Origin: Thermoleophilaceae bacterium
GTDB taxonomy: Bacteria > Actinomycetota > Thermoleophilia > Solirubrobacterales > JACPNS01
Assembly: GCA_016462645.1 (NCBI GenBank)
Contig: JAEMSX010000013.1
Location: 1 to 64,000, forward strand
Length of the DNA: 64,000 bases
Direction of reading: 5' to 3'
The notes below the pieces were generated by a model. That model had not been told where the DNA came from and searched no databases. It saw only the letters and a list, made by a program, of their open reading frames with translations. Positions 45,595 to 63,161 of this stretch are shown here, one piece after another. Position 1 is the first letter of the stretch; every line of letters begins with the position of its first letter. The translations under genes were made by a program, and so were the position numbers.

Positions 45595-45625
45595 GATCCG
45601 TCTAGAGGCAGCGCTCTAGAGGATC
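45595..45625 (-). terminator. Hairpin overlapping the glnA stop codon
   Basis: GATCCG-TCTAGA and TCTAGA-GGATC arms with an 8-base loop. The glnA stop codon lies inside the stem. There is no long T tract, so it may terminate or stabilise the glnA message. Confidence 0.5.
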
Positions 45626-46977
45626 GGCAGATAGCGTTCGAGCTCCCACTGCGTCACCTGCGTGCGGTAGCTCTCCCACTCATTGCGCTTGATTTCGATG
45701 AAGCGCTTGAACATGTGCTCGCCAAGCGTGCGAAGCACGAGCTCAGAGGCCGAAGCAATCTCGACGGCTTCTCCCAAGGTCTCCGGCAGGTGCTCGACGC
45801 CAAGGCGGCGGCCCTCCTCAGAGTTCAGGTGGTACAGGTTCTTCTCCATCGGCTCGGGCAGTTCGTAGCCCTTCTCGATTCCTTCAAGACCGGCTTGGAG
45901 AAGCGCGGCAAAGGTCAGGTACGGGTTGCACGCCGGGTCCGGGCAGCGCAGTTCTGCGCGCATCGCCTGGCCGTCGGCGTTGGATCCGGTCGAGCGGTAC
46001 GGGGGAACGCGCACGAGCGCCGAACGGTTGCGGCGTGACCACGCCAGGTAGACCGGCGCCTCAAAGCCGGGCACGAGGCGCTTGTACGAGTTCACCGACT
46101 GGGCGAAGATCGCGCAGATCTCCCGTGCGTGTGTGAGCTGGCCGGCGATGAACGCCTTGCCGGTCTCTGAAAGCTTGTAGCGGTCGTTCTCGTCGTAGAA
46201 GGCGTTCTTGCCGTCCTTGAAGAGCGACTGGTGCGTGTGCATTCCCGAGCCGTTCTCGTCGTAGAGCGGCTTGGGCATGAAGCTCGCGTGGTAGCCGTAC
46301 TGCTGGGCGTACTCCTTGACGACGATGCGGTAGGTCATGCAGTCGTCGGCCATCTTCATGGCGTCGGCGTAACGCATGTCGATCTCGTGCTGGGACGGGC
46401 CGACCTCGTGGTGCGTGTACTCGACGTGGATGCCCATCTTCTCGAGCGCGAGCACCGTGTCGCGGCGGATGTCCGAGCCGGCATCGAGCGTGGTGAGGTC
46501 GAAGTAGCCGCCGGTATCGAGCGGAACCGGGCCGGCGCCGGGCACGACCTCGCTGTCCTTGAAGTAGTAGTACTCGAGCTCTGGTGCGACGTTGAAGACG
46601 TCAAAGCCCATGTTCTGGGCGCGCTGGACGGCGCGGCGCAATGCGTGGCGCGGGTCGCCCTCGTAGGGCTGGAGGTCCGGGGTGACGATGTCGCAGAACA
46701 TCCGCGCGACCCCCTGCTCCTCCGGGCGCCACGGCAGGATCGCGAAGGTGGACGGGTCGGGCATCGCGACCATGTCGGACTCTTCGATCGCGTTGAAGCC
46801 GGTGATCGACGAGCCGTCGAAGCTCGCGCCGCCATCGAAGGCGTCGCGCAGCTCGGCGCTGTTGATCGAGAAACTCTTGAGCTGACCGAGGATGTCGGTG
46901 AACCACAGACGCACGAAACGAATGTCGTGCTTCTCGATCTCGCCGAGGACGTTTACGGGCGTTTTTGTTTCCGGCAC
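45616..46977 (-). CDS. glnA: Type I glutamine synthetase
   Basis: ATP-dependent formation of glutamine from glutamate and ammonia; dodecameric and cytosolic. The 453-aa protein has the expected order of motifs: FDGSSITGFNAIEESDM (N-terminal latch), NVAPELEYYYF with metal-binding acids, GMHTHQSLF (ATP), the flexible-loop region, and NRSALVRVPPY. It lacks the roughly 25-residue insertion of the I-beta subtype, and the region around NLYHLNSEE, where the adenylylation tyrosine would be, is only partly conserved, so adenylylation control is doubtful. The start is GTG 46977 with GGAGAG just upstream. It stands alone, 4 kb from the molybdenum genes. Confidence 0.95.
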   Translation of the reverse strand: MPETKTPVNVLGEIEKHDIRFVRLWFTDILGQLKSFSINSAELRDAFDGGASFDGSSITGFNAIEESDMVAMPDPSTFAILPWRPEEQGVARMFCDIVTPDLQPYEGDPRHALRRAVQRAQNMGFDVFNVAPELEYYYFKDSEVVPGAGPVPLDTGGYFDLTTLDAGSDIRRDTVLALEKMGIHVEYTHHEVGPSQHEIDMRYADAMKMADDCMTYRIVVKEYAQQYGYHASFMPKPLYDENGSGMHTHQSLFKDGKNAFYDENDRYKLSETGKAFIAGQLTHAREICAIFAQSVNSYKRLVPGFEAPVYLAWSRRNRSALVRVPPYRSTGSNADGQAMRAELRCPDPACNPYLTFAALLQAGLEGIEKGYELPEPMEKNLYHLNSEEGRRLGVEHLPETLGEAVEIASASELVLRTLGEHMFKRFIEIKRNEWESYRTQVTQWELERYLPIL

Positions 46978-50140: not shown

Positions 50141-50893
50141 TCAGCGACCAACATCAGGAATCTCGCCGCGAATCCAGCTGCGATATCCGGAGTCGAGTTC
50201 AAGTTTCCAGATCGGCGCTTCGGCCTTCACGCGGTCGATCGCTTCCCGTGCGGCGGCGAACGCCGCCGGCCGGTTCCGGGATGAGACGGCCACGATCACA
50301 CTCGGCTCGTTCAGGGGCACCGTTCCGACGCGGTGCTCGATCGCAACCGCTTCGAGCTTGTAGGTCTCGAGCAGCTGCGCAACGATGCGCTCGATCCGCG
50401 CCTGCGCCATCTCCTCATAGGCCTCATACTGGAGCATCTCCACGTCGCGGGTGGCGCCGGTGAAGGTCACGACCGCTCCGCTTCCGTCGGTCATGACCAT
50501 GTCGTGGAGCTTCTGGAGGTCAAGCCGCTCTGAGGTCACGCGCACATACGCGGGCGCGCCGCCCGAGATCGGCGGGATCAACGCCAACTCGTCGCCGGGC
50601 TCAACCACCAGGCTGGGATTGGCGTACTCGCGGTTGACTGCAAGCCGCACAGAGTCATTCAGGCCGTAGCTCTCATCCAGCCCGGCGGCCTTCAGGGTTT
50701 TGGCGATCACGGCTGAAGCGCGAACGCCGCGCGGGAGATCGAGCGTGATCATCCGCGTGTCGGCGAGTTCTGCGACCCAGGCAAACAGACGCACTTCAGC
50801 AGAAAAGCGCTCGACGGGCTTTCGGGGGGCCGGCGTTGCCGGAGTGGCCGCGCCTGCGCCGCGGCGATGCATTGCTCGCTGGCGTTTAGACAT
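50141..50893 (-). CDS. moaX: Fused MoaD-MoaE molybdopterin synthase (MoaX-like)
   Basis: A single 250-aa chain holding both subunits of molybdopterin synthase, which adds two sulfurs to cPMP. About residues 30-112 are MoaD (ubiquitin-like: VRLFAWVAELADTRMITLDLP, ending LIPPISGG); the rest is MoaE (TSERLDLQKLHDMV, GATRDVEML, EHRVGTVPLNEPSVIVAVSS). The Gly-Gly that must become a thiocarboxylate is internal and followed by Ala-Pro, so cleavage after it is expected, as described for mycobacterial MoaX. A basic 28-residue tail precedes MoaD. ATG 50893 overlaps the moeA stop, so the two are co-translated. Confidence 0.92.
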   Translation of the reverse strand: MSKRQRAMHRRGAGAATPATPAPRKPVERFSAEVRLFAWVAELADTRMITLDLPRGVRASAVIAKTLKAAGLDESYGLNDSVRLAVNREYANPSLVVEPGDELALIPPISGGAPAYVRVTSERLDLQKLHDMVMTDGSGAVVTFTGATRDVEMLQYEAYEEMAQARIERIVAQLLETYKLEAVAIEHRVGTVPLNEPSVIVAVSSRNRPAAFAAAREAIDRVKAEAPIWKLELDSGYRSWIRGEIPDVGR

Positions 50894-52112
50894 CAACCTT
50901 CTCGCATTCGACGAATAGCCCGTTGTGAGCGACGCTGCCACCTGATCCGATTGTGGCAAGTGCATTGCAGCCGGCAATTGCAGTGACGTCGTCGGATTCA
51001 GTCTTGCGCGGCTTGAAGCTGCGCGCGCCGAGCGTTGTGCTCGTCCGTCCGAGAAGTATCCGCGAGCGACCCTCGGCTCGGGAAACCGCCTCTGTCAACT
51101 CGGCCTCGAAGCGAATCGGCTGTGCCTGGCCGAGCATCTGGCGGATGTGCCTGCGTACATAGAGCTGAAAGCACACCCAGCTTGCGAGCGGGTTGCCCGG
51201 CAGACAGAAGACCGTGACGCGTCGCGATTTGACGGGGAGTGTCGCGATCGCAAAGCGCCGCCCGGGTCGCGCGGCCGTCCCCGCCAGCAGCAGCTCGCCC
51301 CCGAGTTCATCGATCGCCCCCGCGACGTGATCGTGCTCGCCGACCGAGATTCCCCCGGAGGTCACGACGAAGTCGACCTCCTCGGCTGCGGCGCCCAGCA
51401 GCTCGCGCACGGCCGCGCGGTCGTCGGTGACGTACCGGTGGGCATCCAGCTCGCATCCGGCGCCGCGCATCAGTGCGGAGAGCATCGGCGTGTTGCTGTC
51501 GTAGACCGCGCCGGCCACGAGCGGGTCGCCCGGCGAAAGCAGTTCGTCTCCCCCGCCGATCAGTGCGACGCGCGGAGCGCGGCGCACAGCCACCTGCGAG
51601 ATCCCGAAGGCGGCGATCGTCGCGAGTTCGCCGGCGCCGAGGCTGCGGCCTGCGGCCACGAGCTCATCACCCGGGCGCTTGTGGCGCCCTGCCCGGCGCA
51701 CGAAGTCTCCGCCCACCGGCAGGGCGTTCACGACCAACTGGTCTTCGATCTCCCGGCCCGCTTCGACCGGGACTATGCAGTCCGCGCCATTCGGAAGTTC
51801 AGCTCCGGTCGAGATACGGATGGCGTTCCCGACCTGAAGTGAGTCGGCGAACGGCAGTCCTGCGCGGGACTCGCCGACGAGCGTGAACTCGCGTTGCAGG
51901 CCGTCGGCACGGAGCGCCCAGCCGTCCATCGCGGAGTTCGCGAAACGCGGATACTCGGAGTCGGCGTCGAGTCGCTTCGCGAGGATGCGGCCGTGCGCCG
52001 CCTCAGCCGCAATCACTTCCACGCCGACTGAATCGGCGAGCTCGGTTGAGAGTTGCATCGCGGCCTCAATCGTGGCGTCGCGCGCGATCGTTGACTCGCT
52101 AGATTCGCTCAT
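50886..52112 (-). CDS. moeA: Molybdopterin molybdotransferase (MoeA)
   Basis: Inserts molybdate into adenylylated molybdopterin. The 408-aa protein shows family landmarks: SEYPRFANSAMDGWALRADG (active-site loop, about residue 52), STGAELPNGADCIVPVE, VALIGGGDELLSPGDPL, TSGGISVGEHDHV (MPT-AMP binding) and FCLPGNPLASWVCF. ATG 52112 directly abuts the GTG of moaC on the other strand. AGGTGG five bases upstream, inside moaC, is a plausible ribosome-binding site. It is co-translated with moaX. Confidence 0.94.
   Translation of the reverse strand: MSESSESTIARDATIEAAMQLSTELADSVGVEVIAAEAAHGRILAKRLDADSEYPRFANSAMDGWALRADGLQREFTLVGESRAGLPFADSLQVGNAIRISTGAELPNGADCIVPVEAGREIEDQLVVNALPVGGDFVRRAGRHKRPGDELVAAGRSLGAGELATIAAFGISQVAVRRAPRVALIGGGDELLSPGDPLVAGAVYDSNTPMLSALMRGAGCELDAHRYVTDDRAAVRELLGAAAEEVDFVVTSGGISVGEHDHVAGAIDELGGELLLAGTAARPGRRFAIATLPVKSRRVTVFCLPGNPLASWVCFQLYVRRHIRQMLGQAQPIRFEAELTEAVSRAEGRSRILLGRTSTTLGARSFKPRKTESDDVTAIAGCNALATIGSGGSVAHNGLFVECEKVDV
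52100..52105 (+). promoter_or_regulatory. Leaderless -10 element for moaC, inside moeA
   Basis: TAGATT ends seven bases before GTG 52113, with TTGACT three bases upstream of it. The element lies within the first codons of moeA on the opposite strand. Confidence 0.5.
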
Positions 52113-52589
52113 GTGGACCACCTGACGCATCTCGACGACAGCGGTGTCGCGCGCATGGTTGACGTGGGCGACAAAGCGGTCACCGATCGCCGTGCAGTTG
52201 CGGGCGGGCGGGTCGCGATGAAGCCTGAGACCGCGGCGCTCGTGGCCGCCGGCAACGCGCCCAAGGGCGACGTCATCGGCACTGCGCGAATCGCCGGGAT
52301 ACAGGCGGCCAAGCGCACGGCCGAGCTGATTCCGCTGGCGCACAACGTGCCGCTGTCATTCGTGGACGTGCGGCTAGACGTGAATGTCGAAGCCGGCATC
52401 ATCACGATCGAATGCGAGGCCCGGACGAAGGACCGAACGGGCATCGAGATGGAAGCGCTCACGGGCGCGAGCATCGCAGCCCTGACTCTGTACGACATGG
52501 TCAAAGGCGTCGAGCGCGGCGTACGGATCGAGGAGATCTCGCTGCTTGAGAAGTCCGGCGGCAAGTCGGACTGGAAAGCCTCGGACTGA
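52113..52589 (+). CDS. moaC: Cyclic pyranopterin monophosphate synthase (MoaC)
   Basis: Second half of the first Moco step, making cPMP from the MoaA product. The 158-aa protein is full length: LTHLDDSGVARMVDVGDKAVTDR at the start, GNAPKGDVIGTARIAGIQAAKRTAELIPLAHNVPL with the catalytic lysine and histidine region, and KDRTGIEMEALTGASIAALTLYDM at the end. GTG 52113 is supported because the conserved N-terminus begins at once. Its stop is directly followed by the mog start. Confidence 0.95.
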   Translation: MDHLTHLDDSGVARMVDVGDKAVTDRRAVAGGRVAMKPETAALVAAGNAPKGDVIGTARIAGIQAAKRTAELIPLAHNVPLSFVDVRLDVNVEAGIITIECEARTKDRTGIEMEALTGASIAALTLYDMVKGVERGVRIEEISLLEKSGGKSDWKASD

Positions 52590-53042
52590 ATGCGCCTCGC
52601 GGTGCTGACGATCAGCAGCTCGCGCAGTGCAGGTGACGATGCGAGTGGAGACGCACTCGCCGAGGCGATCGCCGCCGCGGGCTTCGAACTGACCGCGCGC
52701 GAACTCGTCGCGGACGACCGCGCATCGATCGAAGCGAAACTGAAGTCACTCGCCGGCGGTGCGGACTGCGTACTCACGACGGGCGGCACCGGAATCACCG
52801 CCGACGATGTGACACCTGAGGCAACGCTGGCCGTGTGCGATCGCGAGGTGCCCGGCATCGCCGAGGCGCTGCGCGCGTCCTCTCTGAGTGAGACGCCGAT
52901 GGCGATGCTCTCACGGGCGGTCGCAGGGACGCTCGGGACCACGCTCATCGTGAACCTTCCCGGCAGTCCCAAGGCATGTCGCCACTGCTTTGCAGTGCTC
53001 GAACCGGTGCTCGAACACGCAGTGGCTCAGTTGAACCGTTGA
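52590..53042 (+). CDS. mog: Molybdopterin adenylyltransferase (MogA/MoaB family)
   Basis: Adenylylates molybdopterin before MoeA inserts molybdenum. The 150-aa protein has TISSSRSAGDDASGDAL near the N-terminus, TTGGTGITADDVTPEA (the signature, about residue 63) and NLPGSPKACRHCF near the end. It begins immediately at the moaC stop, so the pair is one unit. Its last 98 bases overlap the 3' end of modC on the other strand. Confidence 0.93.
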   Translation: MRLAVLTISSSRSAGDDASGDALAEAIAAAGFELTARELVADDRASIEAKLKSLAGGADCVLTTGGTGITADDVTPEATLAVCDREVPGIAEALRASSLSETPMAMLSRAVAGTLGTTLIVNLPGSPKACRHCFAVLEPVLEHAVAQLNR

Positions 53043-53643
53043 TGGCGTGCGCTGTCGGTGCGATGCGGCCGCGCTCGACTCGCAGAATGCTGGAACAGAT
53101 CCGGCGCAGGCGCGGTACGTCGTGTCCTGCGATCAAGCACGGAGCGTCACTGCCGGAAATCCGTTCCGCGATGAACTTCTCAGCCAGCGTCGCCGAATCG
53201 AGGTCCAGGCCGGCGAAGGGCTCGTCAAGCAGGTAGAGCTCGCGGCCGGGCGCGAGCGCACGCGCGAGCGCGACGCGCCTGCGCTGGCCGCCGGACAGTT
53301 CGCCGGGGCGCCGATCAACGGCTGCGCTCAGCCCGAGCGCCGCAAGCGACTCCCGCGCGCTCGCGCAGGCGTGGCGCTTGCGAACTCCTGTCGCCTTGAG
53401 CGGGAACGCGACGTTGTCCAGCGCGGTCATATGCGGAAACAGTCCGTCGCGCTGACCGAGGTAGCCGACTTCAAGCCGAGGGATCGAGCCGCGCGCAGCG
53501 GGCTCCAGGCCCGCCAGTGCGCGGATGATGCTCGACTTGCCGGATCCGGACCGACCGACCAGCGCGACCGCTCCCTCCAGTCGCAACGCCACCTCCACGT
53601 TGAACTCAGGCCGCTCGAGCCGCAGCTGTATCGCCGTCGTCAT
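52945..53643 (-). CDS. modC: Molybdate ABC transporter ATP-binding protein (ModC)
   Basis: ATPase of molybdate import. The 232-aa protein has Walker A GRSGSGKSS (about residue 30), a short Q-loop, GELSGGQRRRVALARALA (signature) and ELYLLDEPFAGLD (Walker B). It lacks the C-terminal MOP-like molybdate-sensing domain of E. coli ModC, so feedback by that route is absent. The frame runs 98 bases into mog. ATG 53643 overlaps the modB stop (ATGA). It is last of a twelve-gene polycistron. Confidence 0.91.
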   Translation of the reverse strand: MTTAIQLRLERPEFNVEVALRLEGAVALVGRSGSGKSSIIRALAGLEPAARGSIPRLEVGYLGQRDGLFPHMTALDNVAFPLKATGVRKRHACASARESLAALGLSAAVDRRPGELSGGQRRRVALARALAPGRELYLLDEPFAGLDLDSATLAEKFIAERISGSDAPCLIAGHDVPRLRRICSSILRVERGRIAPTAHAINGSTEPLRVRAPVRALQSSGDMPWDCREGSR

Positions 53644-54449
53644 CGCGCTTCCCAGCCGGCGCGCGCGCCGTAAAGGCGCGCGAGTACCGAGATCGCAACC
53701 GTCAGCACAAGCAGCAGAATCGCCAACGCGAATGCGGCGTCAGCACTCGTGTAGAGCGAGCCGTAGATCGCGAGTGTGAGCGTCTGCGTGACGCCGGCGA
53801 CACTCCCGGCAAACATGATCGTCGCCCCGAATTCGCCGAGCGCGCGGGCGCCGGAGAGCGCGAGGCCGCCGAGCAGTCCGCGCTTTGCCAACGGGAGCTC
53901 GATCTGGAGGAAGCGACGAACTGGTCCCGCGCCGGTGGTGCGCGAGGCCTCCAGCACGTCCCGCTCGCACGCAGCGAACGCAGATTGCGCTTGACGGATG
54001 TACAGCGGCGCCGCAACGAACGTCAGCGCCAGGACCACCGCGAGGCGCGTGAACGGCACCTGGACTCCGAACGGCGCCAGCGCGTTGCCGACGGGCCCGC
54101 CGTCCCCGAATGCCGCGAGCAGCGCGATGCCGGCGACCGCCGGCGGCAGCACGAGCGGGAGATCGAACAGCACCTCGAGTGAACTGAGCAACGGCCCGGG
54201 CTGGCCGCGCGCGAGCAGAAAAGCGACCGGCGTGCCGAATGCGACGATCAGCAGCAACGCGCAGGTGACTGCGCCGAGGCTGATCATCAACGCATCGATC
54301 GACTCGGGGCGCGCGAGTTCTTCGACTGCCGTGAGCGGTGAGATCCGCGTCACGAGCGCGACCATCGGGACGAGCACGAACAGAGCCGCCACGCCGACCG
54401 CCAGGCCGAATCCGGTACCCGCCAGGCGCTTGTGCGCCAGCGTCGTCAT
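53640..54449 (-). CDS. modB: Molybdate ABC transporter permease (ModB)
   Basis: A 269-aa inner-membrane permease with about six helices and the coupling-helix EAA-type motif (SRTTGAGPVRRFLQIELPLAKRGLLGGLALSGARALGEFGATIMFAG in outline, about residues 180-225), where GEFGAT is characteristic of molybdate/sulfate permeases. ATG 54449 overlaps the modA stop (ATGA), and its own stop overlaps modC in the same way, so the transporter subunits are tightly coupled. Confidence 0.92.
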   Translation of the reverse strand: MTTLAHKRLAGTGFGLAVGVAALFVLVPMVALVTRISPLTAVEELARPESIDALMISLGAVTCALLLIVAFGTPVAFLLARGQPGPLLSSLEVLFDLPLVLPPAVAGIALLAAFGDGGPVGNALAPFGVQVPFTRLAVVLALTFVAAPLYIRQAQSAFAACERDVLEASRTTGAGPVRRFLQIELPLAKRGLLGGLALSGARALGEFGATIMFAGSVAGVTQTLTLAIYGSLYTSADAAFALAILLLVLTVAISVLARLYGARAGWEAR

Positions 54450-55240
54450 GGATTCGTCCCGGCGGCGGCAGGGACGGGCAAGAAGCCCGCTGCGCGCAGC
54501 ACTTCTTGCCCGTCTGGCGATTCGATGAAGTCGAGCAGAGCGTCGGCACCGTCGGAGGCATCGGGGGTGGGCGCGATCCAGTAGGCGATCGTCGGCTGCG
54601 CCCACGCCGGCAGCGCGACGCTGCGAACCCGCGTGGCGTTGGAGTTCACGTCGGTCACGTAGGAGAGCGACGAGTCCACTCCGCCCAGCGCTACCGGGGT
54701 GATCACCTCGGCGGCGTTGGACGCGCGGTTAACCACGTTTGCAGCGACCTTCTCGGCGAAGCCGCGCTTGTAGCGCGAGTCGAGCGTCGCGATGACCTCG
54801 TCCGCGTAGTCGCCGACGGGAACACCGGTCTGCCCCAACGAGAGGCGCTGCTTCAGCGCGAGGTCTCCCGCGTCCTTGATCGGAACGTCCGACTTCCTGC
54901 TCACGGCGATCGTCATCGCGTTTCCCGCGAACGGCTCTGCATCCTCGACCAGCTTTGCGTCGAGCAGCGGGCGCATGTGGCTGCCGCTTGCGGTCACCAC
55001 AACATCCGCGTCGAGCCCGCCCTCGATCTGACGCTGAATCTGATCCGATGGCGCGAAGGTGGTCCTCACCCGGACGTCGGGGTGCGCCCGCTTGAAGTCG
55101 GCGACGGCGGTGTCGACCGCAGCCTTCATGGACGTGGCGGCGACGAGCGTCACCGACTCGTTCTCACTGCGGCCGCATCCGCTGAACACAAACGCGGCCG
55201 GGACGACGGCGCAAGCGATGAATCTCAACACGTCGCTCAT
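54446..55240 (-). CDS. modA: Molybdate-binding lipoprotein (ModA)
   Basis: Periplasmic-type molybdate receptor, 264 aa. The lipoprotein signal is short (RFIACAVVPAAFVFSGC, lipidated Cys about residue 22). The binding-protein core follows: TLVAATSMKAAVDTAVADFKRAHPDVRVRTTFAPSDQIQRQIEGGLDADVVV (in outline), with the serines that bind the oxyanion. It overlaps moaA upstream and modB downstream by 4 bases each. Confidence 0.93.
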   Translation of the reverse strand: MSDVLRFIACAVVPAAFVFSGCGRSENESVTLVAATSMKAAVDTAVADFKRAHPDVRVRTTFAPSDQIQRQIEGGLDADVVVTASGSHMRPLLDAKLVEDAEPFAGNAMTIAVSRKSDVPIKDAGDLALKQRLSLGQTGVPVGDYADEVIATLDSRYKRGFAEKVAANVVNRASNAAEVITPVALGGVDSSLSYVTDVNSNATRVRSVALPAWAQPTIAYWIAPTPDASDGADALLDFIESPDGQEVLRAAGFLPVPAAAGTNP

Positions 55241-56229
55241 CCCCCGATCTGCGACATCCAGCGCGCGGGTTGCGTGAATGAGTCCTCGCCGATCTTGTGG
55301 CCGGCCGGCTTGCGCCAGATCGCGCCGCGAATCAGCTCCTCGAGCTCGCCGTTGGTCACGCCCTCGCGCATCGGCCCGCGCAAGTCAGTCTCTCCGAGCG
55401 CGAACAGGCAGGTGCGCAGCTGACCGTCCGCAGTCAGACGCGCCCGGTCGCAGGTGCCGCAGAATGGCTCGCTGACCGGGCTGACGAATCCGATCTCCCC
55501 CGCGTTGTCCGCGAACGCGAACCGGCTCGACGTCGCGGCGGACTCGGCTGCCAGGGGAACAAGATCGTGCATGGATTCGACGACGCGCCGGATCTCGGCA
55601 CCGGTGAGCAGCACATCGTCGCTCCACTGTTCATCCGCGTCGAGCGGCATGAATTCAAGAAAGCGAACGACGTACGGCCTGCGCCTGGCCAGCTCGGCGA
55701 ACTCGAGAATCTCCAGATCCGACATCCCGCGAACGGCGACGACGTTGACCTTGATCGGGCCGAGCTGGGGGTAGCGCTCAAGCGCGGCGAGTCCCGCGAT
55801 CACCTTCTGCAGGCCGTTGCGCCGCGTGATCTCGCGGTAGCGCTCGGGAGTCAGCGCGTCGAGGCTCACGTTCACCCGGGTGAGTCCCGCCTGGACCAGC
55901 GGCTCAATCAGCTGCTCGAGCAGGATGCCGTTTGTCGTCAGCGAGATGTCCTCGATCGCGTCGATCGCTGCGATTCGCTCGACCAGCTCGGGGAGGTTCT
56001 TGCGCACCAGCGGCTCGCCTCCGGTCAGGCGAACGCTGCGCACGCCGAGGTCCGCAAACAGCGAGACGAGCCGCTCGATCTCGGCGAACTCGAGTTCCTG
56101 TTCCTTGGGGGCCCACGCTAGGCCCTCGGCCGGCATGCAGTAGTGGCAGCGCAGGTTGCAGCGGTCGGTCACGGACACGCGAAGATCCATGATCTCGCGT
56201 CCGTAGGTGTCGACCAGTGCGCCGCCCAT
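55237..56229 (-). CDS. moaA: GTP 3',8-cyclase (MoaA)
   Basis: Radical-SAM enzyme for the first step of molybdenum cofactor synthesis. The 330-aa protein has the N-terminal cluster CNLRCHYC (about residues 23-30), VRLTGGEPLVRKNL, and the second cluster FCGTCDRARLTADGQLRTC near residue 250; it ends in the functionally important Gly-Gly (QIGG). ATG 56229 is 7 bases after nirD, placing cofactor synthesis on the same transcript as the nitrite reductase and nitrate importer. Confidence 0.95.
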   Translation of the reverse strand: MGGALVDTYGREIMDLRVSVTDRCNLRCHYCMPAEGLAWAPKEQELEFAEIERLVSLFADLGVRSVRLTGGEPLVRKNLPELVERIAAIDAIEDISLTTNGILLEQLIEPLVQAGLTRVNVSLDALTPERYREITRRNGLQKVIAGLAALERYPQLGPIKVNVVAVRGMSDLEILEFAELARRRPYVVRFLEFMPLDADEQWSDDVLLTGAEIRRVVESMHDLVPLAAESAATSSRFAFADNAGEIGFVSPVSEPFCGTCDRARLTADGQLRTCLFALGETDLRGPMREGVTNGELEELIRGAIWRKPAGHKIGEDSFTQPARWMSQIGG

Positions 56230-56236
56230 CCGCGTC

Positions 56237-56590
56237 CTACTCCGCCTCTACTTGAAGCAGCCAGACGGTGCCGTCACGCACCTCAAGTGGATAGGTCCGG
56301 ACCGTCTCGGACTGGTCCTTGACCGTGCCGTCGCGCAGGTCGATGCGCCAGCCGTGCAGCGGGCAGGTCACGCAGGCGTCGGCGAGGATGCCGTCGGAGA
56401 GCGGCCCGCCCTGGTGCGGGCAGTCGTTGTCGATCGCGAAGAATCCCGCGGCGGTGTTGAAGACTCCGATCCGGCGATCGACCATCGCGACACTGCGGCC
56501 CTCGCCGAATGGCACGTCAGCTTCAAGGCAGAGCGCGATCGCCCCCTGGGGCAACGACTCGGTCCCGACGGCGGCCTCGGGCGGTTTCAT
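56237..56590 (-). CDS. nirD: Nitrite reductase small subunit (NirD, Rieske type)
   Basis: A 117-aa Rieske-fold partner of NirB. Unlike many NirD proteins, both halves of the Rieske ligand set are intact: CPHQGGPLSDG (about residue 57) and CPLHGW (about residue 76), so a [2Fe-2S] cluster is expected. ATG 56590 overlaps the nirB stop (ATGA); the upstream open frame is antisense-like extension. Confidence 0.92.
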   Translation of the reverse strand: MKPPEAAVGTESLPQGAIALCLEADVPFGEGRSVAMVDRRIGVFNTAAGFFAIDNDCPHQGGPLSDGILADACVTCPLHGWRIDLRDGTVKDQSETVRTYPLEVRDGTVWLLQVEAE

Positions 56591-59019
56591 GCACTTCCTC
56601 CTTCGATCAGCGCTTCGACCGGTGGTCCGGCGGGAGCCAGCGCCGGCTCGCTGTCCAGTTCTGAGAACTGCTTGGGGTGTACGGGGTTGTTGCGTTCGAG
56701 CCACGGATCCACGACCGCGGCCTTCGCGATCCGGAAACGCTCACGCAGGCGTTCGGGCTCTCCGGACTCTTCGTTGAGCACCGCCTCCTTGACGAAATCG
56801 AGGCCGACGCGTTCAACGTAGCCATAGGTGCGCTCGAGGTATTCGGCGTTCTCGCGATAGTGCTGCAGGAAGGTCGTGGAGACGCGCATGGCCTCGGCCT
56901 TGGTGTCGACGGTCACGAGAATGTCGCCCTCGCGCACCGAGGCTCCGGCAGCGCCGCCGATGCGGACCTGCCAGCCGCCTTCGACGGCGATCAGGCCGAT
57001 GTCCTTGGTACTGGCCTCGGCGCAGTTGCGCGGGCAGCCCGAGACGGCGGCCTTGACCTTGTGCGGCGTGTAGAGCCCCTCCCACTCGTGCTCAAGCTCG
57101 ATGCCCGTGGCGATCGAGTCATCCAGGCCGAAGCGGCAGAAGTTCTCACCGACGCAGGTCTTGACTGTGCGGACCGCTTTGGCGTAGGCGTGGCCCGACG
57201 GCATCCCGAGCTCCTCCCAGATCGCCGGGAGGTTCTCCTTCTTGACACCGAGCAGGTCGATGCGCTGACCGCCGGTGATCTTCACCATCGGGACTTCGTA
57301 CTTGTCGGCGACGTCAGCGATGCGGCGGAGCTCGTCCGGTGAGGTCACGCCGCCGTAGATGCGCGGCACCACAGAGAACGTGCCGTCCTTCTGAATGTTC
57401 GCGTGTACGCGGTCGTTGATGTACCGCGCGTGGCGCTCTTCGCGGTGGCGGTTGTCGTTGATCTCGGAGACGAGATATGCGATGCCCGGCTTGCAGCCTC
57501 CGCACTCCCGGGTGGCCCCGCAGCACTCGGCGACTTCGCTGACCGACTGGGCGCCGTGCTCGCGGATCGAGTTGGCGATGTCCTCGCCGGTCAGTTTGCG
57601 GCAAGGGCAGAGGTATGCCTGCTCGTCGCCGGCGCCGCCGGTCTCGATCTGCACGAGCTCGGTGACCAGCGACTTGCATGTTCCGCAGCCGGCGCCGGCG
57701 CGCGTGACGGCGACGACTTCCTGGGTGCCGGTCAGCCCGCGCTCGCGGATTGCGTCGACGATCTCGCCCTTGCAGACGCCGTTGCAGTTGCAGACCTGCG
57801 CTGTGTCGGGCAGCTCTGCAGCCGTCGCTTCGCTCGCCTTGGAGAGGGTCTCAAGCGGGTTGATCACTTCGGCGCCGGTCTTGGCCTTGTCGAGCAGCAG
57901 CTCGTAGCCGCGGGTGTCGCCCATCAGCACCGCGCCGGTGAGCTTGCCGTCGGTGACCGCGAGCTTGCGGTAGATCCCGGCCTCGGGGTCACTGACCGTG
58001 ACCGTCTCGCCGCTGGCGACATCTCCCACGGACACGAGGTCCACACCCATCACCTTCAACTTGGCGCTGGGGATCGATCCACCGTAGGACTCGCCGTCGA
58101 TGCCGGCGATGCTGCGCGCCGCCACCTCGCACTGGTCATAGATCGGAGCGACGATGCCGTAGACGATTCCGTTGTGCTGGGCGCACTCGCCGACGGCGTA
58201 GATGCCCGGCGCAGAAGTCTGCATCGCGTCATCCACGACCACGCCGCGTTCGACGGTCAGGCCGGCCTCCTTGGCGAGGTCGGTGCGCGAGCTGATGCCC
58301 ACGCTCATCACGACGAAGTCGCAGTCCAGCGTCTCGCCATCGGCAAAGCGCAGTCCGGTCGCGTGGTCATCGCCCATGATCTCCACGGTCGAGCGCTCGG
58401 TCAGCACTTCGACGTCGATCTCCTTCATCGCCGCGAGCAGCAGGTCTGCAGCAGGCTGATCGAGCTGACGTTCCATCAGGCGGTCCATCAGGTGGACGAC
58501 CGTGACGTCGCAGCCGAGCGCCGCCAGCGCTTTCGCGGCCTCAAGACCGAGCAGACCCCCGCCGATCACCGCGGCGCGCGCGCCGGGCTCGGCCTGCTCG
58601 ACGATCATCTCGCAGTCGACCGGGTAGCGATAGAGATACACGCCGTCGCGATCGATCCCCTCGATCGGCGGGACCAACGCTTCACTTCCGGTGGCAAGGC
58701 AGACGCTGTCGAACTCGCGCGTCTCTTCGCCGAGCGTCACGCTGCGCGTTGACGTGTCGACCGCGCTGACGCGCTCACCGACGACGAACTCGATCTTGTT
58801 GTCCTCATACCACTCGTCCGGGCGCAGGCGCAGGTCAGACACATCGGCGCCCTTCTCAATCAGCTCAGTCAGGCGGACGCGGTCGTACGGCAGGTGTGCC
58901 TCACCGCAGTAGAGCGTGATCGGTAGCTCGCTGTCGTGCTTGCGGACCGCCTCGATCAGCGCCTGGGCGGCCATGCCGCCACCAATCACTGCGAGGCCCT
59001 TGGGCTTGGCGTACATCAT
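56587..59019 (-). CDS. nirB: Assimilatory NAD(P)H nitrite reductase large subunit (NirB)
   Basis: Six-electron reduction of nitrite to ammonia in the cytosol. The 810-aa protein has, in order, an FAD/NAD(P)H reductase module (AVIGGGMAAQALIEAV near the start, AAVIGGGLLGLEAAKAL about residue 145), two BFD-like Cys clusters (CNCNGVCKGEIVDAIRERG and CPCRKLTGEDI followed by CCGATRECGGCKPG), a ferredoxin-like half-domain, and the siroheme/[4Fe-4S] site with CVGENFCRFG and SGCPRNCAEA. ATG 59019 has GAGGAG upstream and overlaps the preceding stop (ATGA). An ATG doublet makes the start ambiguous by one codon. Confidence 0.95.
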   Translation of the reverse strand: MMYAKPKGLAVIGGGMAAQALIEAVRKHDSELPITLYCGEAHLPYDRVRLTELIEKGADVSDLRLRPDEWYEDNKIEFVVGERVSAVDTSTRSVTLGEETREFDSVCLATGSEALVPPIEGIDRDGVYLYRYPVDCEMIVEQAEPGARAAVIGGGLLGLEAAKALAALGCDVTVVHLMDRLMERQLDQPAADLLLAAMKEIDVEVLTERSTVEIMGDDHATGLRFADGETLDCDFVVMSVGISSRTDLAKEAGLTVERGVVVDDAMQTSAPGIYAVGECAQHNGIVYGIVAPIYDQCEVAARSIAGIDGESYGGSIPSAKLKVMGVDLVSVGDVASGETVTVSDPEAGIYRKLAVTDGKLTGAVLMGDTRGYELLLDKAKTGAEVINPLETLSKASEATAAELPDTAQVCNCNGVCKGEIVDAIRERGLTGTQEVVAVTRAGAGCGTCKSLVTELVQIETGGAGDEQAYLCPCRKLTGEDIANSIREHGAQSVSEVAECCGATRECGGCKPGIAYLVSEINDNRHREERHARYINDRVHANIQKDGTFSVVPRIYGGVTSPDELRRIADVADKYEVPMVKITGGQRIDLLGVKKENLPAIWEELGMPSGHAYAKAVRTVKTCVGENFCRFGLDDSIATGIELEHEWEGLYTPHKVKAAVSGCPRNCAEASTKDIGLIAVEGGWQVRIGGAAGASVREGDILVTVDTKAEAMRVSTTFLQHYRENAEYLERTYGYVERVGLDFVKEAVLNEESGEPERLRERFRIAKAAVVDPWLERNNPVHPKQFSELDSEPALAPAGPPVEALIEGGSA

Positions 59020-59351
59020 GATGCCTTCTCCTCGTTGCCGATTGTTGGTGTGGCTGGTGTGTGCGGGGCGCGCACGATCGTTCCGTCGGGCGCGATGCTC
59101 GGCACGCCGCCGCGCTCGAGCTCCTGGTCCTTGTAACGACGAAGACCCTTGAAGATGCATTGCGAAAACCACTCGCCGGCCGGGTGGTAGAGCTTCACGA
59201 ACTGCTTGTGCGCGCCGCACCAACCGAAGTTCAGACCGCTCTCGTCGCGCTCGAAGTTCTTGCAGTCGCGACAGTCGCGGAACTTGACGCGCCGCTCGTC
59301 AACGACGTCTTCGAGCATGCGCAGGGTGCCGTCCGGGTTGATCGCGTCCAC
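59016..59351 (-). CDS. Cysteine-rich small protein of unknown family
   Basis: A 111-aa soluble protein. Four cysteines (C27, C30, C45, C65; spacing C-x2-C-x14-C-x19-C) lie in a conserved-looking core with GLNFGWCGAHKQFVKLYHP and WFSQCIFKGLRRYKDQELE, which suggests an Fe-S cluster or zinc site. No family is recognised. The GTG start shares one base with the TAG stop of the molybdoenzyme gene, and its stop overlaps nirB, so it is made in step with both. It could be an electron-transfer subunit of the molybdoenzyme. Confidence 0.82.
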   Translation of the reverse strand: MDAINPDGTLRMLEDVVDERRVKFRDCRDCKNFERDESGLNFGWCGAHKQFVKLYHPAGEWFSQCIFKGLRRYKDQELERGGVPSIAPDGTIVRAPHTPATPTIGNEEKAS

Positions 59352-59956
59352 TACGCCTCCTCAAGAAGATGGAATCGGTCGATCAGGCCCTGCGGAACGG
59401 CGCCCTCGACGTCGCCGACCTTCGTCTCCCAGGGACCCGCGTCCATGTGGTCGGTCACGTGCAGTGCGCAGACCCATTTGACGCCCTTGTAGCCCCACAG
59501 GTACGGCGGCTGGAGCCAGCGCACCGGACCGCCGTGGATCGCCGGAAGCGACTCGCCCTCAAGTTCGATCGCGAACCACCCGTCGCGCGCCTGATCGAGC
59601 GGCACGCAGGAGGCATAGGGGCTGTCTGCCGCCGCAAAGCGCACGTGCGTGGCGGACGGCTGAATCGCCGCCGCATCGATCACCCTGCCCGCAGGCACCC
59701 CGACCCAGTTGACCTTCGGCCGGCTCCACCCCCACACGCAATGGAAGTCGCTGCTGATCGGCTCGGGCCCGAGCTCGCGCAGCGCATCGAGCGTGAACTC
59801 GATCGGCGTGCGCACGAGGCCGTCGACAGTGATCGTCCAGTCCGCTCGCTGCGGTGGTTCGAGTTCGAGATGAACAGGGGCGAGCGCGTCCACGAGTCGT
59901 TGAACGCGTGGCTTGCCGTTCTCCAGCGGCAGCGGTGACGGTCGATCCCTGTTCAT
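59351..59956 (-). CDS. Molybdopterin-dependent oxidoreductase, sulfite-oxidase fold
   Basis: A 201-aa protein comprising essentially only the Mo-binding domain of the sulfite oxidase/plant nitrate reductase superfamily (PF00174 type). The molybdenum-ligand cysteine lies in DFHCVWGWSRPKVNWVGV (about residue 75). HGGPVRWLQPPYLWGYKGVKWV (about residues 144-165) is the second signature. It has no signal peptide, heme or dimerisation domain, so it should be cytosolic. It lies among nitrate import, nirBD and Moco genes, where a nitrate reductase is expected. ATG 59956 is used; GTG 59968 is an alternative. Confidence 0.9.
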   Translation of the reverse strand: MNRDRPSPLPLENGKPRVQRLVDALAPVHLELEPPQRADWTITVDGLVRTPIEFTLDALRELGPEPISSDFHCVWGWSRPKVNWVGVPAGRVIDAAAIQPSATHVRFAAADSPYASCVPLDQARDGWFAIELEGESLPAIHGGPVRWLQPPYLWGYKGVKWVCALHVTDHMDAGPWETKVGDVEGAVPQGLIDRFHLLEEA

Positions 59957-59977
59957 CCCTGAACTCACTCCCTCCCC

Positions 59978-60193
59978 TCAAACCTTCTCCGCGCCGGCTT
60001 CCCGTTCCGGTGCAAGTGGCTCAGCGGGCGAACCCGACTTCAGCTCTCGAACTTCAGAGCTGACCGAATCCTTGAACTCGCGCATTCCTCCACCGAGGCC
60101 GCGCCCGAGTTCCGGCAGTTTCTTGGGACCGAAGACGACCAGCGCAATCGCCAGGACGATTCCGATCTCGAGTGGTCCGATACTTGGCATCAT
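59978..60193 (-). CDS. tatA: Sec-independent translocase protein TatA/E
   Basis: A 71-aa Tat component: a short N-terminal membrane helix (GPLEIGIVLAIALVVFGPKKLPELGR, with the FGPKKLPELG hinge), an amphipathic helix and a charged Glu/Lys tail. ATG 60193 overlaps the ATPase stop (ATGA). No tatB or tatC is nearby. Its placement between importer and reductase genes suggests it supports export of the Tat-signal-bearing nitrate-binding protein encoded three genes upstream. Confidence 0.92.
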   Translation of the reverse strand: MMPSIGPLEIGIVLAIALVVFGPKKLPELGRGLGGGMREFKDSVSSEVRELKSGSPAEPLAPEREAGAEKV

Positions 60194-60993
60194 GCTGCTT
60201 CCTCCATTGGCTCTGGGACTGCCAGTTCGTGTTCGAGCAGGTAGACGAGACGCTCGCGCACGCGCTGGAACTCCGGGTCGCGTGCGATCTCCGCGCGATC
60301 GCGCGGGCGCTCGATGTTCACCTCGATCACCTCAGCGACCGACGGCTTGGGCGGGTTGCCCATCACGACGATGCGGTCGGCCAGGAAGATCGCTTCCTCG
60401 ATGCCGTGCGTGACCATCACGACGGTCTCGGTCTCTTCTTCCTTGGACCACATGTCGATCAGCTGCTGCTGCAGGTTGGAGCGGGTCAGAGCGTCGAGCG
60501 CGCCGAACGGCTCGTCGAGCAGCAGGACCTTGGGACCAACGGCGAAAGCGCGGGCGACCGCGGTGCGCTGGCGCATGCCGCCTGAGATCTCGCCGGGCTT
60601 CTTGTCACGGTGCATCCACAGGCCGGTGCTGCGGATGTACTTCTCCGCGACGGCGCGGTTTTCGTCTGCAGAGCGATCCTTGCGCGCCGAGAGCGTTGCC
60701 TCGACCACATTGTCATAGACCGACATCCACGGCAGGAGCGAATAGTTCTGAAAGACGATCGCGCGATCCGGGCCGGGACCCTCGACGCGAAAGCCGTCGA
60801 GCACGACCTTTCCGCTGGAGGCCGGCTCCAGGCCGCCGATCACGTTCAGCAGCGTCGACTTGCCACAACCGCTGTGGCCGATGATCGTGACGAACTCTCC
60901 CTTCTCGATCGTCAGGTCAACGCCACGCAGAACTTCCTGCGGGCCCGACTTCGTGGTGAACGACTTGCGAACTTCGGTGATGTCAAGCGACAT
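60190..60993 (-). CDS. nrtD: Nitrate ABC transporter ATP-binding protein (NrtD/SsuB/TauB type)
   Basis: A 267-aa ATPase: Walker A GHSGCGKST (about residue 40), FQNYSLLPWMSVYDNV (Q-loop), EISGGMRQRTAVARAFA (signature), VLLLDEPFGALD (Walker B) and THGIEEA (H-loop). It belongs to the nitrate/sulfonate/taurine importer group; the operon defines nitrate as the likely substrate. Its start abuts the nrtB stop, and its stop overlaps tatA. It is a plain ATPase without the NrtC-type binding-protein fusion. Confidence 0.91.
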   Translation of the reverse strand: MSLDITEVRKSFTTKSGPQEVLRGVDLTIEKGEFVTIIGHSGCGKSTLLNVIGGLEPASSGKVVLDGFRVEGPGPDRAIVFQNYSLLPWMSVYDNVVEATLSARKDRSADENRAVAEKYIRSTGLWMHRDKKPGEISGGMRQRTAVARAFAVGPKVLLLDEPFGALDALTRSNLQQQLIDMWSKEEETETVVMVTHGIEEAIFLADRIVVMGNPPKPSVAEVIEVNIERPRDRAEIARDPEFQRVRERLVYLLEHELAVPEPMEEAA

Positions 60994-61869
60994 TCAGACC
61001 ATCTCCTTGTATGCGACGCGGGCCTGCAGGCGGCCGAAGCCGAAGTCGAGCGCCATACCGACGAAGCCGATCACGAAGATCGCCGCGGCGACGTTTGCGA
61101 GGTTTGACGCGTTGTAGGCATCCCAGACGTAGAACCCGATGCCGGTGCCGCCGGAGAGCATCTCCGCGGCCACGATCACCATCCAGGCGATGCCCATCGA
61201 GATGCGCATGCCGGTCACGACCGACGGCAGGCTGTAGGGAAGCAACACGTGGCGCACGTACTTGGTCCGGCTGAACTGGAACACGCGGGCGACGTTCTTG
61301 TGGCTCTGCGGCACCGACGATACGCCGAACGCGGTGTTCAGCAGCGTGGGCCAGATCGACGTGATGAAGATCACGAAGATCGCCGCGAGCGGCGCGGCCT
61401 TGAGCACGACCAGGCCGAGCGGAAACCACGCGAGCGGTGACACCGGGCGCAGGAGCTGCACGACTGGATTGAAGATCGACCATGCCGCCGGGCTCGCGCC
61501 CATCAGAAACCCGAACGGAACCGCGACGACGGTCGCGATCGCGAATCCGATGAACACCCGCTCAAGCGAGGTCATCAGCTGGATGCCGATGCCCTTGTCA
61601 TTGGGGCCGCCGTCGTGGAACGGAGTCTTGAGCAGATCGACCAGCGCGGTCACCGCCTCGACCGGAGTCGGGAGGTCCGGGGAGATCGTGGCGATGACCG
61701 CCCAGAGCAAGAACAACAGGCCGAAGCCGAAGAGGCCGAGGGCGAGCGTCGTGCCGGCGCTGCCCAGTCGGCCGAGCAGCAGCCCGCCCGGCCTCGCCGT
61801 CTTCTCGATCGGCGCCTTGTCCAGCCGCGCCGCACCGGCCTCGGCTGCGATCTGGGTCTCGGTGTTCAT
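60994..61869 (-). CDS. nrtB: Nitrate ABC transporter permease (NrtB type)
   Basis: A 291-aa permease with about six helices of the SsuC/TauC/NrtB family: FLLWAVIATISPDLPTPVEAVTALVDLL is the first region, with the family's WFPLGLVVLKAAPLAAIFVIF and the coupling segment FQFSRTKYVRHVLLPYSLPSVVTGMRISMG in outline. The N-terminus is a 35-residue cytosolic tail. It overlaps nrtA by 4 bases (ATGA). Confidence 0.92.
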   Translation of the reverse strand: MNTETQIAAEAGAARLDKAPIEKTARPGGLLLGRLGSAGTTLALGLFGFGLLFLLWAVIATISPDLPTPVEAVTALVDLLKTPFHDGGPNDKGIGIQLMTSLERVFIGFAIATVVAVPFGFLMGASPAAWSIFNPVVQLLRPVSPLAWFPLGLVVLKAAPLAAIFVIFITSIWPTLLNTAFGVSSVPQSHKNVARVFQFSRTKYVRHVLLPYSLPSVVTGMRISMGIAWMVIVAAEMLSGGTGIGFYVWDAYNASNLANVAAAIFVIGFVGMALDFGFGRLQARVAYKEMV

Positions 61870-63161
61870 GCTCGGTCAGCCTCCTTCTGCGGGTCCTTCG
61901 GGTCGAAGTGCGTGTTGTCGAGTTTCACGGTGAACGGCGCCATGCCGTCGTCGGGCACCTTCACGCCTTCGGACTTGGCGACGTCGGCGTAGAGATCGCT
62001 GAGGATCACGCTCTCGGCGATCTGGTCGTAGGCCGGAGCCTTGTCGAGGTATCCGAAGCGCTGGTACTGGGCGAGGAACCAGATCGCCTCGCCGGCGCGT
62101 GGCACGTTCGTCTCGCCATCGCGGAAGAAACGCATGCGACGAGCACCGAACGACTTGTGGCCCAGGCCTGCCCCGAGCTCATACTCGCCGAGCAGGCGCG
62201 GCTCGATGTCTTCGGGCGTGGCATTGACGATTGCGGGCGTGCCGATCGTCTTGGCCACCTTCGGGATGTTCTTCTCGTCATCGCAGAACTGACATGCATC
62301 GAGCACCGCCGCCATGACTTCCTTGAGCTCGGACTGGCGCTTGGTGGCGAACTCTTCGTTGACGACGAGAGCCTTCTCCGGATGGTTGGTCCAGATGTCC
62401 TGCGAAGCGATCGTGGTGAAGCCGATCTTCTTGTCGACCGCCACCGCGTTCCAGGGCTCTCCGACCGAGTATCCGTTCATGTTGCCGGCGGTCATGTTCG
62501 CGACCATCTGCGGCGGCGGGATCGGGATGATCTTTGCGGCATCCATCGACACGCCCATCGCCAGCAGCCAGTAGCGCAGCCAGGCGTCGTGGGTTCCGCC
62601 GGGGAAGGTCATCGCGAAGGTCTGACCCTTTCCGCCGTTGATCGCCGCCTTGGCCTTGTTCAAGTCGCCATAGCCGGCCGCCGAGAGGTCGTCCTTGAGC
62701 GTGATCGCCTGACCGTTGTTGCTCAGCGTCATCGCGATCTTCAGCTTGTCGTTGGCCGGCTGTCCGCCGAGACCGGCGGCGCCGGCGAGCGGAAGGCTGT
62801 AGAGGCAGTGGGCCGCGTCGATGTCGCCGTTGAGAAGCGCGTCGCGAGTCGCGGGCCACGAGGCCTGCTTGACGACCGAGACGTTCAGGCCGCGCTCCTT
62901 GAAGTACCCGAGAGTGTCGGCCATGATGATCGGCGCGCAGTCCGTGAGCGCGATGAAGCCGATCTTGATTTCCTTGCCACCGGCGCTTCCGCCGCCCGAG
63001 GTCGGCTCGCTGGTCGCGCCGCAGGCCGAAAGGGCCCAGGCCGGAAGTGCTGCTGCCGCCGCCACCGCGCCGGTACGAATAATGGCGTCACGGCGAGAAA
63101 TCGGACGAGCGAGCGTATTCGCGAGAGTCGCCTCTACGGCATTCCGCGGATCTGTGGGCAT
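61866..63161 (-). CDS. nrtA: Nitrate-binding protein with Tat lipoprotein signal (NrtA/CmpA type)
   Basis: The 431-aa receptor of the importer. The signal peptide contains SRRDAIIRTG (twin-arginine type) and a lipobox ALSACG (Cys about residue 47). The mature part matches NrtA: KIGFIALTDCAPIIMADTLGYFKERGL, then NGDIDAAHCLYSLPLA, MTFPGGTHDAWLRYWLLAMGV, and GYSVGEPWNAVAV, where the family binds the anion. It is the first gene of the twelve-gene polycistron. AAGGAG lies seven bases before ATG 63161. Confidence 0.93.
   Translation of the reverse strand: MPTDPRNAVEATLANTLARPISRRDAIIRTGAVAAAAALPAWALSACGATSEPTSGGGSAGGKEIKIGFIALTDCAPIIMADTLGYFKERGLNVSVVKQASWPATRDALLNGDIDAAHCLYSLPLAGAAGLGGQPANDKLKIAMTLSNNGQAITLKDDLSAAGYGDLNKAKAAINGGKGQTFAMTFPGGTHDAWLRYWLLAMGVSMDAAKIIPIPPPQMVANMTAGNMNGYSVGEPWNAVAVDKKIGFTTIASQDIWTNHPEKALVVNEEFATKRQSELKEVMAAVLDACQFCDDEKNIPKVAKTIGTPAIVNATPEDIEPRLLGEYELGAGLGHKSFGARRMRFFRDGETNVPRAGEAIWFLAQYQRFGYLDKAPAYDQIAESVILSDLYADVAKSEGVKVPDDGMAPFTVKLDNTHFDPKDPQKEADRA

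Follow-up and report, generated by a model that had tools for sequence, protein, structure and literature searches.

A sulfite oxidase-fold protein and a four-cysteine partner probably constitute a previously unrecognized nitrate reductase in a few uncultured Actinomycetota

Introduction

The nitrate reductases Nar, Nap and Nas are enzymes of the dimethyl sulfoxide (DMSO) reductase family, and NasN belongs to the same family. Here we describe a gene pair that occupies the usual position of the nitrate reductase in an assimilation operon of Thermoleophilaceae bacterium (Actinomycetota), located in a stretch of 64,000 nucleotides (in the following called the window; positions 1 to 64,000 of contig JAEMSX010000013.1, assembly GCA_016462645.1). 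One gene encodes a protein of the sulfite oxidase (SUOX) fold, the other a small protein with four conserved cysteines (in the following called Cys4). A review from 2020 recognizes only three types of prokaryotic nitrate reductases, Nar, Nap and Nas, and lists a cytoplasmic group of SUOX proteins as uncharacterized (PMC7759655). SUOX-type nitrate reductases have been placed in eukaryotes, where they arose from a fusion of eukaryotic genes (PMC6400420). NasN of M. smegmatis (MSMEG_4206) is a multidomain protein of 1351 amino acids (PMC7816997). In the open-access papers searched, we found no bacterial nitrate reductase of the SUOX type.

Among the described systems, the eukaryotic nitrate reductase of Pichia angusta (2bii) resembles the SUOX protein in the fold of its Mo domain (template modeling (TM) score 0.64), is likewise cytosolic and works together with a nitrite reductase and a nitrate transporter. 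However, it is fused to dimerization, cytochrome b5 and FAD/NADH domains (PMC6400420), whereas here a lone Mo domain of 201 amino acids stands next to the four-cysteine protein. NasA, NasC, NarB and NasN would share the role and the operon position, where nirBD or nirA and a nitrate transporter are their neighbors, but they are DMSO reductase-family proteins (PF00384). Besides NuoG and formate dehydrogenase, no such protein was found in the genome of the window (G000), its congener G003 or the more distant G245 and G342. MsrP (YedY) is the closest solved structure (TM 0.70) and has the same Mo-ligand motif region; in contrast to the protein studied here, which appears cytosolic, has another partner and lies in a nitrate operon, MsrP is exported by the twin-arginine translocation (Tat) system and works with the heme protein MsrQ. 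The YuiH-like “sulfite oxidase-like oxidoreductases” are also short cytosolic PF00174 proteins, but form a separate clade, have a ferredoxin reductase as partner and lack nitrate genes nearby.

The SUOX–Cys4 gene pair

The original prediction, made from the letters of the window, described an operon for nitrate import, nitrite reduction, molybdenum cofactor synthesis and molybdate uptake, in which the only molybdoenzyme is a PF00174 protein of 201 amino acids with the Mo-ligand cysteine and without signal peptide. The family models for nrtB, nrtD, nirB, moaA and modA, all above their cutoffs, confirmed this gene content, and the description of the protein was accurate as well. The SUOX gene (59351..59956, minus strand) reads from an ATG at 59956 to a TAG at 59351, with a possible alternative in-frame GTG start at 59968. 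Its product matches PF00174 with 103 bits (E 1.7e-29; curated cutoff 24), and by eye no signal peptide was recognized at the N-terminus of the translation. Cys77, within the motif FHCVWGW, is invariant and corresponds in the alignment to the cysteine that binds Mo in MsrP. All top Foldseek matches of its AlphaFold2 model (mean predicted local distance difference test (pLDDT) 83) are SUOX-fold proteins, so that domain, Mo-ligand cysteine and fold all assign it to this family. MsrP is followed among the nearest solved structures by sulfite dehydrogenases and the Pichia nitrate reductase (TM 0.61–0.64); the relation to plant nitrate reductase, for which the common Mo fold had been noted, is confined to the fold.

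None of the models compared for characterized PF00174 enzymes fitted the protein. The NCBIfam model for MsrP scored 58.6 bits against a cutoff of 207, and the protein has neither a Tat signal nor an adjacent msrQ, its neighbor being the Cys4 gene. The equivalog models for SorA, SorT and SoxC scored 32–39 bits against cutoffs of 420–600. PF00174 is the sole domain, unlike the single chain of Mo, dimerization, cytochrome b5 and FAD domains in eukaryotes, and neither protein of the pair is a PF00384 catalytic subunit of the NasA/NarB kind.

Cys4 (59016..59351, minus strand; 111 amino acids) reads from a GTG at 59351 to a TGA at 59016. It overlaps the SUOX stop codon by 1 base, which bears out the predicted tight adjacency and slightly corrects the spacing, given before as one base apart. 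We found no family match for it in Pfam, NCBIfam, PHROG or PDB searches, and no match in a fold search with its model. Seven homologs, each adjoining a SUOX gene, all keep the motif RDCRxC..GWCxAH..HP..SQCxFK, with Cys27, Cys30, Cys45, Cys65, H48 and H56 invariant. Further matches in G282, G044, G372 and G174 were weak (E around 1e-4), most of them in broken frames, and were taken as chance. The four invariant cysteines probably carry an iron-sulfur (Fe-S) cluster, and Cys4 is a probable electron-transfer subunit. Compared with G003, the ratio of nonsynonymous to synonymous substitution rates is 0.10 for SUOX and 0.21 for Cys4. Because both are under purifying selection, they are real genes.

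The operon runs on the minus strand in the order nrtA-nrtB-nrtD-tatA-SUOX-Cys4-nirB-nirD-moaA-modA, followed by modB and modC, and thus joins a nitrate transporter and a siroheme nitrite reductase, as in nitrate assimilation loci. From nrtA to modA the intergenic gaps are, in order, -4, 0, -4, 27, -1, -4, -4, 7 and -4 bases. Because the gaps range from -4 to 27 bases, we regard these genes as one operon.

Search for another molybdenum enzyme or nitrate reductase

The genome of the window (2.65 Mb) is 82% complete, and therefore we included relatives in a search for three families of molybdenum enzymes, PF00384, PF02738 and PF00174. In the own genome, PF00174 gave one protein and PF02738 none, and PF00384 gave a single match, NuoG, so a NasA elsewhere in this genome was rejected as a candidate. 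The same operon is found in G003, a 96% complete genome of this genus, with SUOX, Cys4 and NirB 83%, 86% and 94% identical. Here, too, NuoG was the only PF00384 protein above the cutoff and no PF02738 enzyme was detected, and there is one PF00174 protein and one MoaA, the latter inside the nitrate operon. Thus, NasA, NarB, NapA and NarG were not found in either genome, and in G003 the three families yielded no molybdenum enzyme besides the SUOX protein. Control genomes were positive in the same nitrate reductase search.

A third congener, G004 (93% complete), yielded no SUOX, Cys4, NirB or MoaA; PF00384 gave only NuoG, and no molybdenum enzyme of the families searched was found. The whole module is therefore present or absent together. 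In G342 and G245, the PF00384 proteins are NuoG and a selenocysteine-type formate dehydrogenase only, the pieces of the latter in G245 being identified by sequence likeness to typed ones. A nearby PF00384 protein of G002 (L037:14486-16729), which at first resembled NasA, was rejected as such; its neighbors are an FdhD-like protein and NuoE/F-like subunits, and from the sequences we take it to be a formate dehydrogenase.

Recurrence of the pair and phylogenetic analysis

The survey of relatives that had been proposed with the prediction gave the expected co-occurrence. A nitrite reductase lies beside the pair in 7/7 intact loci, and a transporter is adjacent in 5/7. This association extends across two types of nitrite reductase and two types of transporter; SUOX, Cys4, a siroheme nitrite reductase and a Rieske protein form the constant set of all intact loci. 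In G001 and G002, of the same genus, the pair is followed by nirBD, and a NarK-type major facilitator superfamily transporter replaces NrtABD; this transporter matches TIGR00886 far better than any other model, though under its cutoff. Two families other than the home family have the pair as well, one represented by G152 and G245, the other by G342; all three are Actinomycetota with genomes 94–96% complete (G342 96%, G245 94%). The neighbors of the pair in these three are a siroheme reductase of the NirA type and a Rieske protein, joined in the G342 cluster by a siroheme synthase domain and a NarK-type transporter. The pair is rare: apart from the home genus, 3/397 genomes in a phylum-wide sample contained it, and in the class it was confined to the home genus.

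G001 contains a second copy of the cluster (L035:8284-9377, G001:C67), in which a truncated nirB comes after nrtABD-tatA-SUOX and Cys4 is missing, apparently the result of an internal deletion. The genome retains an intact copy (L036) with the NarK-type transporter. In the G342 cluster, a HemD-like protein whose C-terminal domain resembles a DNA-binding domain (L041:3388-4566) adjoins the siroheme synthase and NirA and is a possible nitrate regulator.

To place the SUOX proteins, we calculated a maximum-likelihood tree from 55 PF00174 domains, in which the eight SUOX proteins with a nitrate link group together in a single clade (99/98), distinct from MsrP and from the YuiH-like proteins. This clade divides into two halves, one linked to NirB and the other to NirA. 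At 20 control PF00174 loci from the same order we found no Cys4 and no nir, nrt or NarK neighbors; the few nirB and nrtD matches there were low-identity general flavin and ABC domains. YuiH-like proteins on plasmids adjoin a ferredoxin reductase, and one YuiH-like relative lies near msrB and ergothioneine genes. Among the plasmid SUOX matches opened, none had nitrate genes, no plasmid carried Cys4, and viral contigs gave no match. On Halobaculum plasmids (L059:6004-6543, L062:6022-6534), a short protein of PF00174, with about 40% identity, is encoded beside CbtA/CbtB and cobalamin synthesis genes.

Proposed function and alternative explanations

Gene content, conservation, co-occurrence and the absence of other candidates among the families searched give strong genomic support to the assimilatory nitrate reductase that had been proposed, with catalysis still a matter of inference. 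In our view, the pair is likely to be a cytosolic, assimilatory nitrate reductase of the SUOX fold, non-orthologous to NasA/NarB; its fold is that of the eukaryotic nitrate reductase. Nitrate would enter via NrtABD, or via the NarK-type permease in relatives. The 201-amino acid subunit would bind a mono-pterin molybdenum cofactor through Cys77 and convert nitrate to nitrite by oxygen-atom transfer, and NirBD or NirA would reduce nitrite to ammonium. The co-encoded moa and mod genes would provide the cofactor, apparently for the SUOX enzyme alone. Electrons would most probably pass to the Mo site through Cys4 from a general cytosolic donor, such as ferredoxin, the Rieske protein or, where present, the flavin domain of NirB. 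Either the cysteine-rich protein or NirB had been suggested as donor: Cys4 stands as the constant partner, whereas NirB as a general or obligatory donor was rejected, because it is not constant across the intact loci and is lacking in the NirA clusters outside the home genus.

Several observations weigh against this assignment. We infer the catalytic role from genomic evidence. It comprises only seven intact loci; every one lies in a genome of the Actinomycetota, and the genomes identified are metagenome-assembled. In sequence and fold the SUOX protein is nearer to MsrP than to the eukaryotic nitrate reductase, whose dimerization, heme and flavin domains it lacks. Cys4 yielded a poor structural model (pLDDT 61), and its Fe-S cluster has been guessed from the four invariant cysteines. 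NarG-type genes, two of which were typed (L026, L027), are present in G001 and G002 as well. G152 has an additional DMSO reductase-type protein of 848 amino acids (L049:781-3324), which fits the models for formate dehydrogenase, thiosulfate reductase and DMSO-type II best, not that for NasC.

A conventional NasA or NarB could lie in the unassembled part of each genome, leaving an auxiliary role for the pair, as all genomes are incomplete (82–96%), the own genome being at the lower end. Yet this would require independent misses in G000 (82%), G003 (96%), G342 (96%) and G245 (94%), whose nir neighborhoods are assembled, and in bacteria NasA and its nir genes are usually neighbors. With the control genomes positive, and MoaA and NirB absent along with the pair in G004, we regard such a hidden enzyme as quite improbable. 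A second alternative, also unlikely if a little less so, is that these bacteria assimilate nitrite only. The SUOX protein would then be a sulfoxide reductase or sulfite dehydrogenase of the cytosol, with a protective or supporting role for the siroheme nitrite reductase or a part in coping with reactive nitrogen. The structural proximity of MsrP would fit this, as would the YuiH-like relatives with their ferredoxin reductase and, in one case, nearby msrB and ergothioneine genes; moreover, NrtABD and NarK can also carry nitrite. However, the YuiH-like proteins belong to another clade, with another partner and no nitrate context, while the pair tracks nitrate and nitrite genes through exchanges of transporter and nitrite reductase, and a full moa-mod set would be odd inside a nitrite-only operon.

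A variant compatible with nitrate reduction by the SUOX protein concerns Cys4, which could be a zinc-binding assembly factor for cofactor insertion or stability. Four-cysteine patterns also bind zinc, and no known Fe-S family matches Cys4. Against this, the SUOX domain on its own has no electron-relay cofactor and the two genes are nearly always adjacent, although neither point is decisive; we hold this role to be possible, with the odds against it.

It is more likely than not that the pair represents a new bacterial class of assimilatory nitrate reductase, a two-component SUOX-fold enzyme of a lone Mo domain and a new Fe-S protein family, which would have arisen independently of NasA and of the eukaryotic enzyme by convergent recruitment of the SUOX fold. 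This would add to the bacterial nitrate reductases a class missed by standard annotation, and nitrate assimilation would have been overlooked in genomes and metagenomes. One branch of the uncharacterized cytoplasmic SUOX proteins would gain a function and a new family of redox proteins a name, and the fold that reduces nitrate in plants and fungi would have been recruited for nitrate in bacteria, too.

Neighboring genes

Upstream of the pair, on the minus strand, lie nrtA, encoding a binding protein with a Tat lipoprotein signal (61866..63161; PF13379, 276 bits), the permease gene nrtB (60994..61869; TIGR01183, 229 bits, cutoff 209), the ATPase gene nrtD of the nitrate ATP-binding cassette transporter (60190..60993; TIGR01184, 300 bits, cutoff 291.8) and tatA (59984..60193, its stop just below 59984; PF02416, E 1.1e-18). 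By tblastn, tatA was found in nrtABD clusters (L035, L038) and not found in the NarK-type clusters. The SUOX protein as a Tat substrate was therefore rejected, since the twin-arginine motif, SRRDAII, is on NrtA; in three clusters tatA probably serves the export of NrtA.

Downstream on the same strand, nirB, for the large subunit of NAD(P)H nitrite reductase (56587..59019; TIGR02374, 825 bits, cutoff 578), starts with an overlap of 4 bases with the Cys4 stop. It is followed by the gene for a nirD-like Rieske protein (56237..56590; PF00355; TIGR02378 with 71.8 bits, narrowly under the cutoff of 74.65) and by moaA for molybdenum cofactor synthesis (55237..56229; TIGR02666, 366 bits, above the curated cutoff), the sole copy found in the genome. 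The molybdate genes are modA for the binding protein (54446..55240; TIGR01256, 90.8 bits, cutoff 62.5), modB for the permease (53640..54524, start approximate; PF00528) and modC for the ATPase (52945..53643; PF00005), the latter two assigned by domain and operon position. Further cofactor genes follow, with moaC (52113..52589; PF01967) and moaB/mogA (52590..53042; PF00994) on the plus strand, and moeA (50886..52100, start approximate; PF03453 and PF00994) and a moaD-moaE fusion (50141..50977; PF02597 and PF02391) on the minus strand. A glutamine synthetase gene is located in the same window at 45616-46977.

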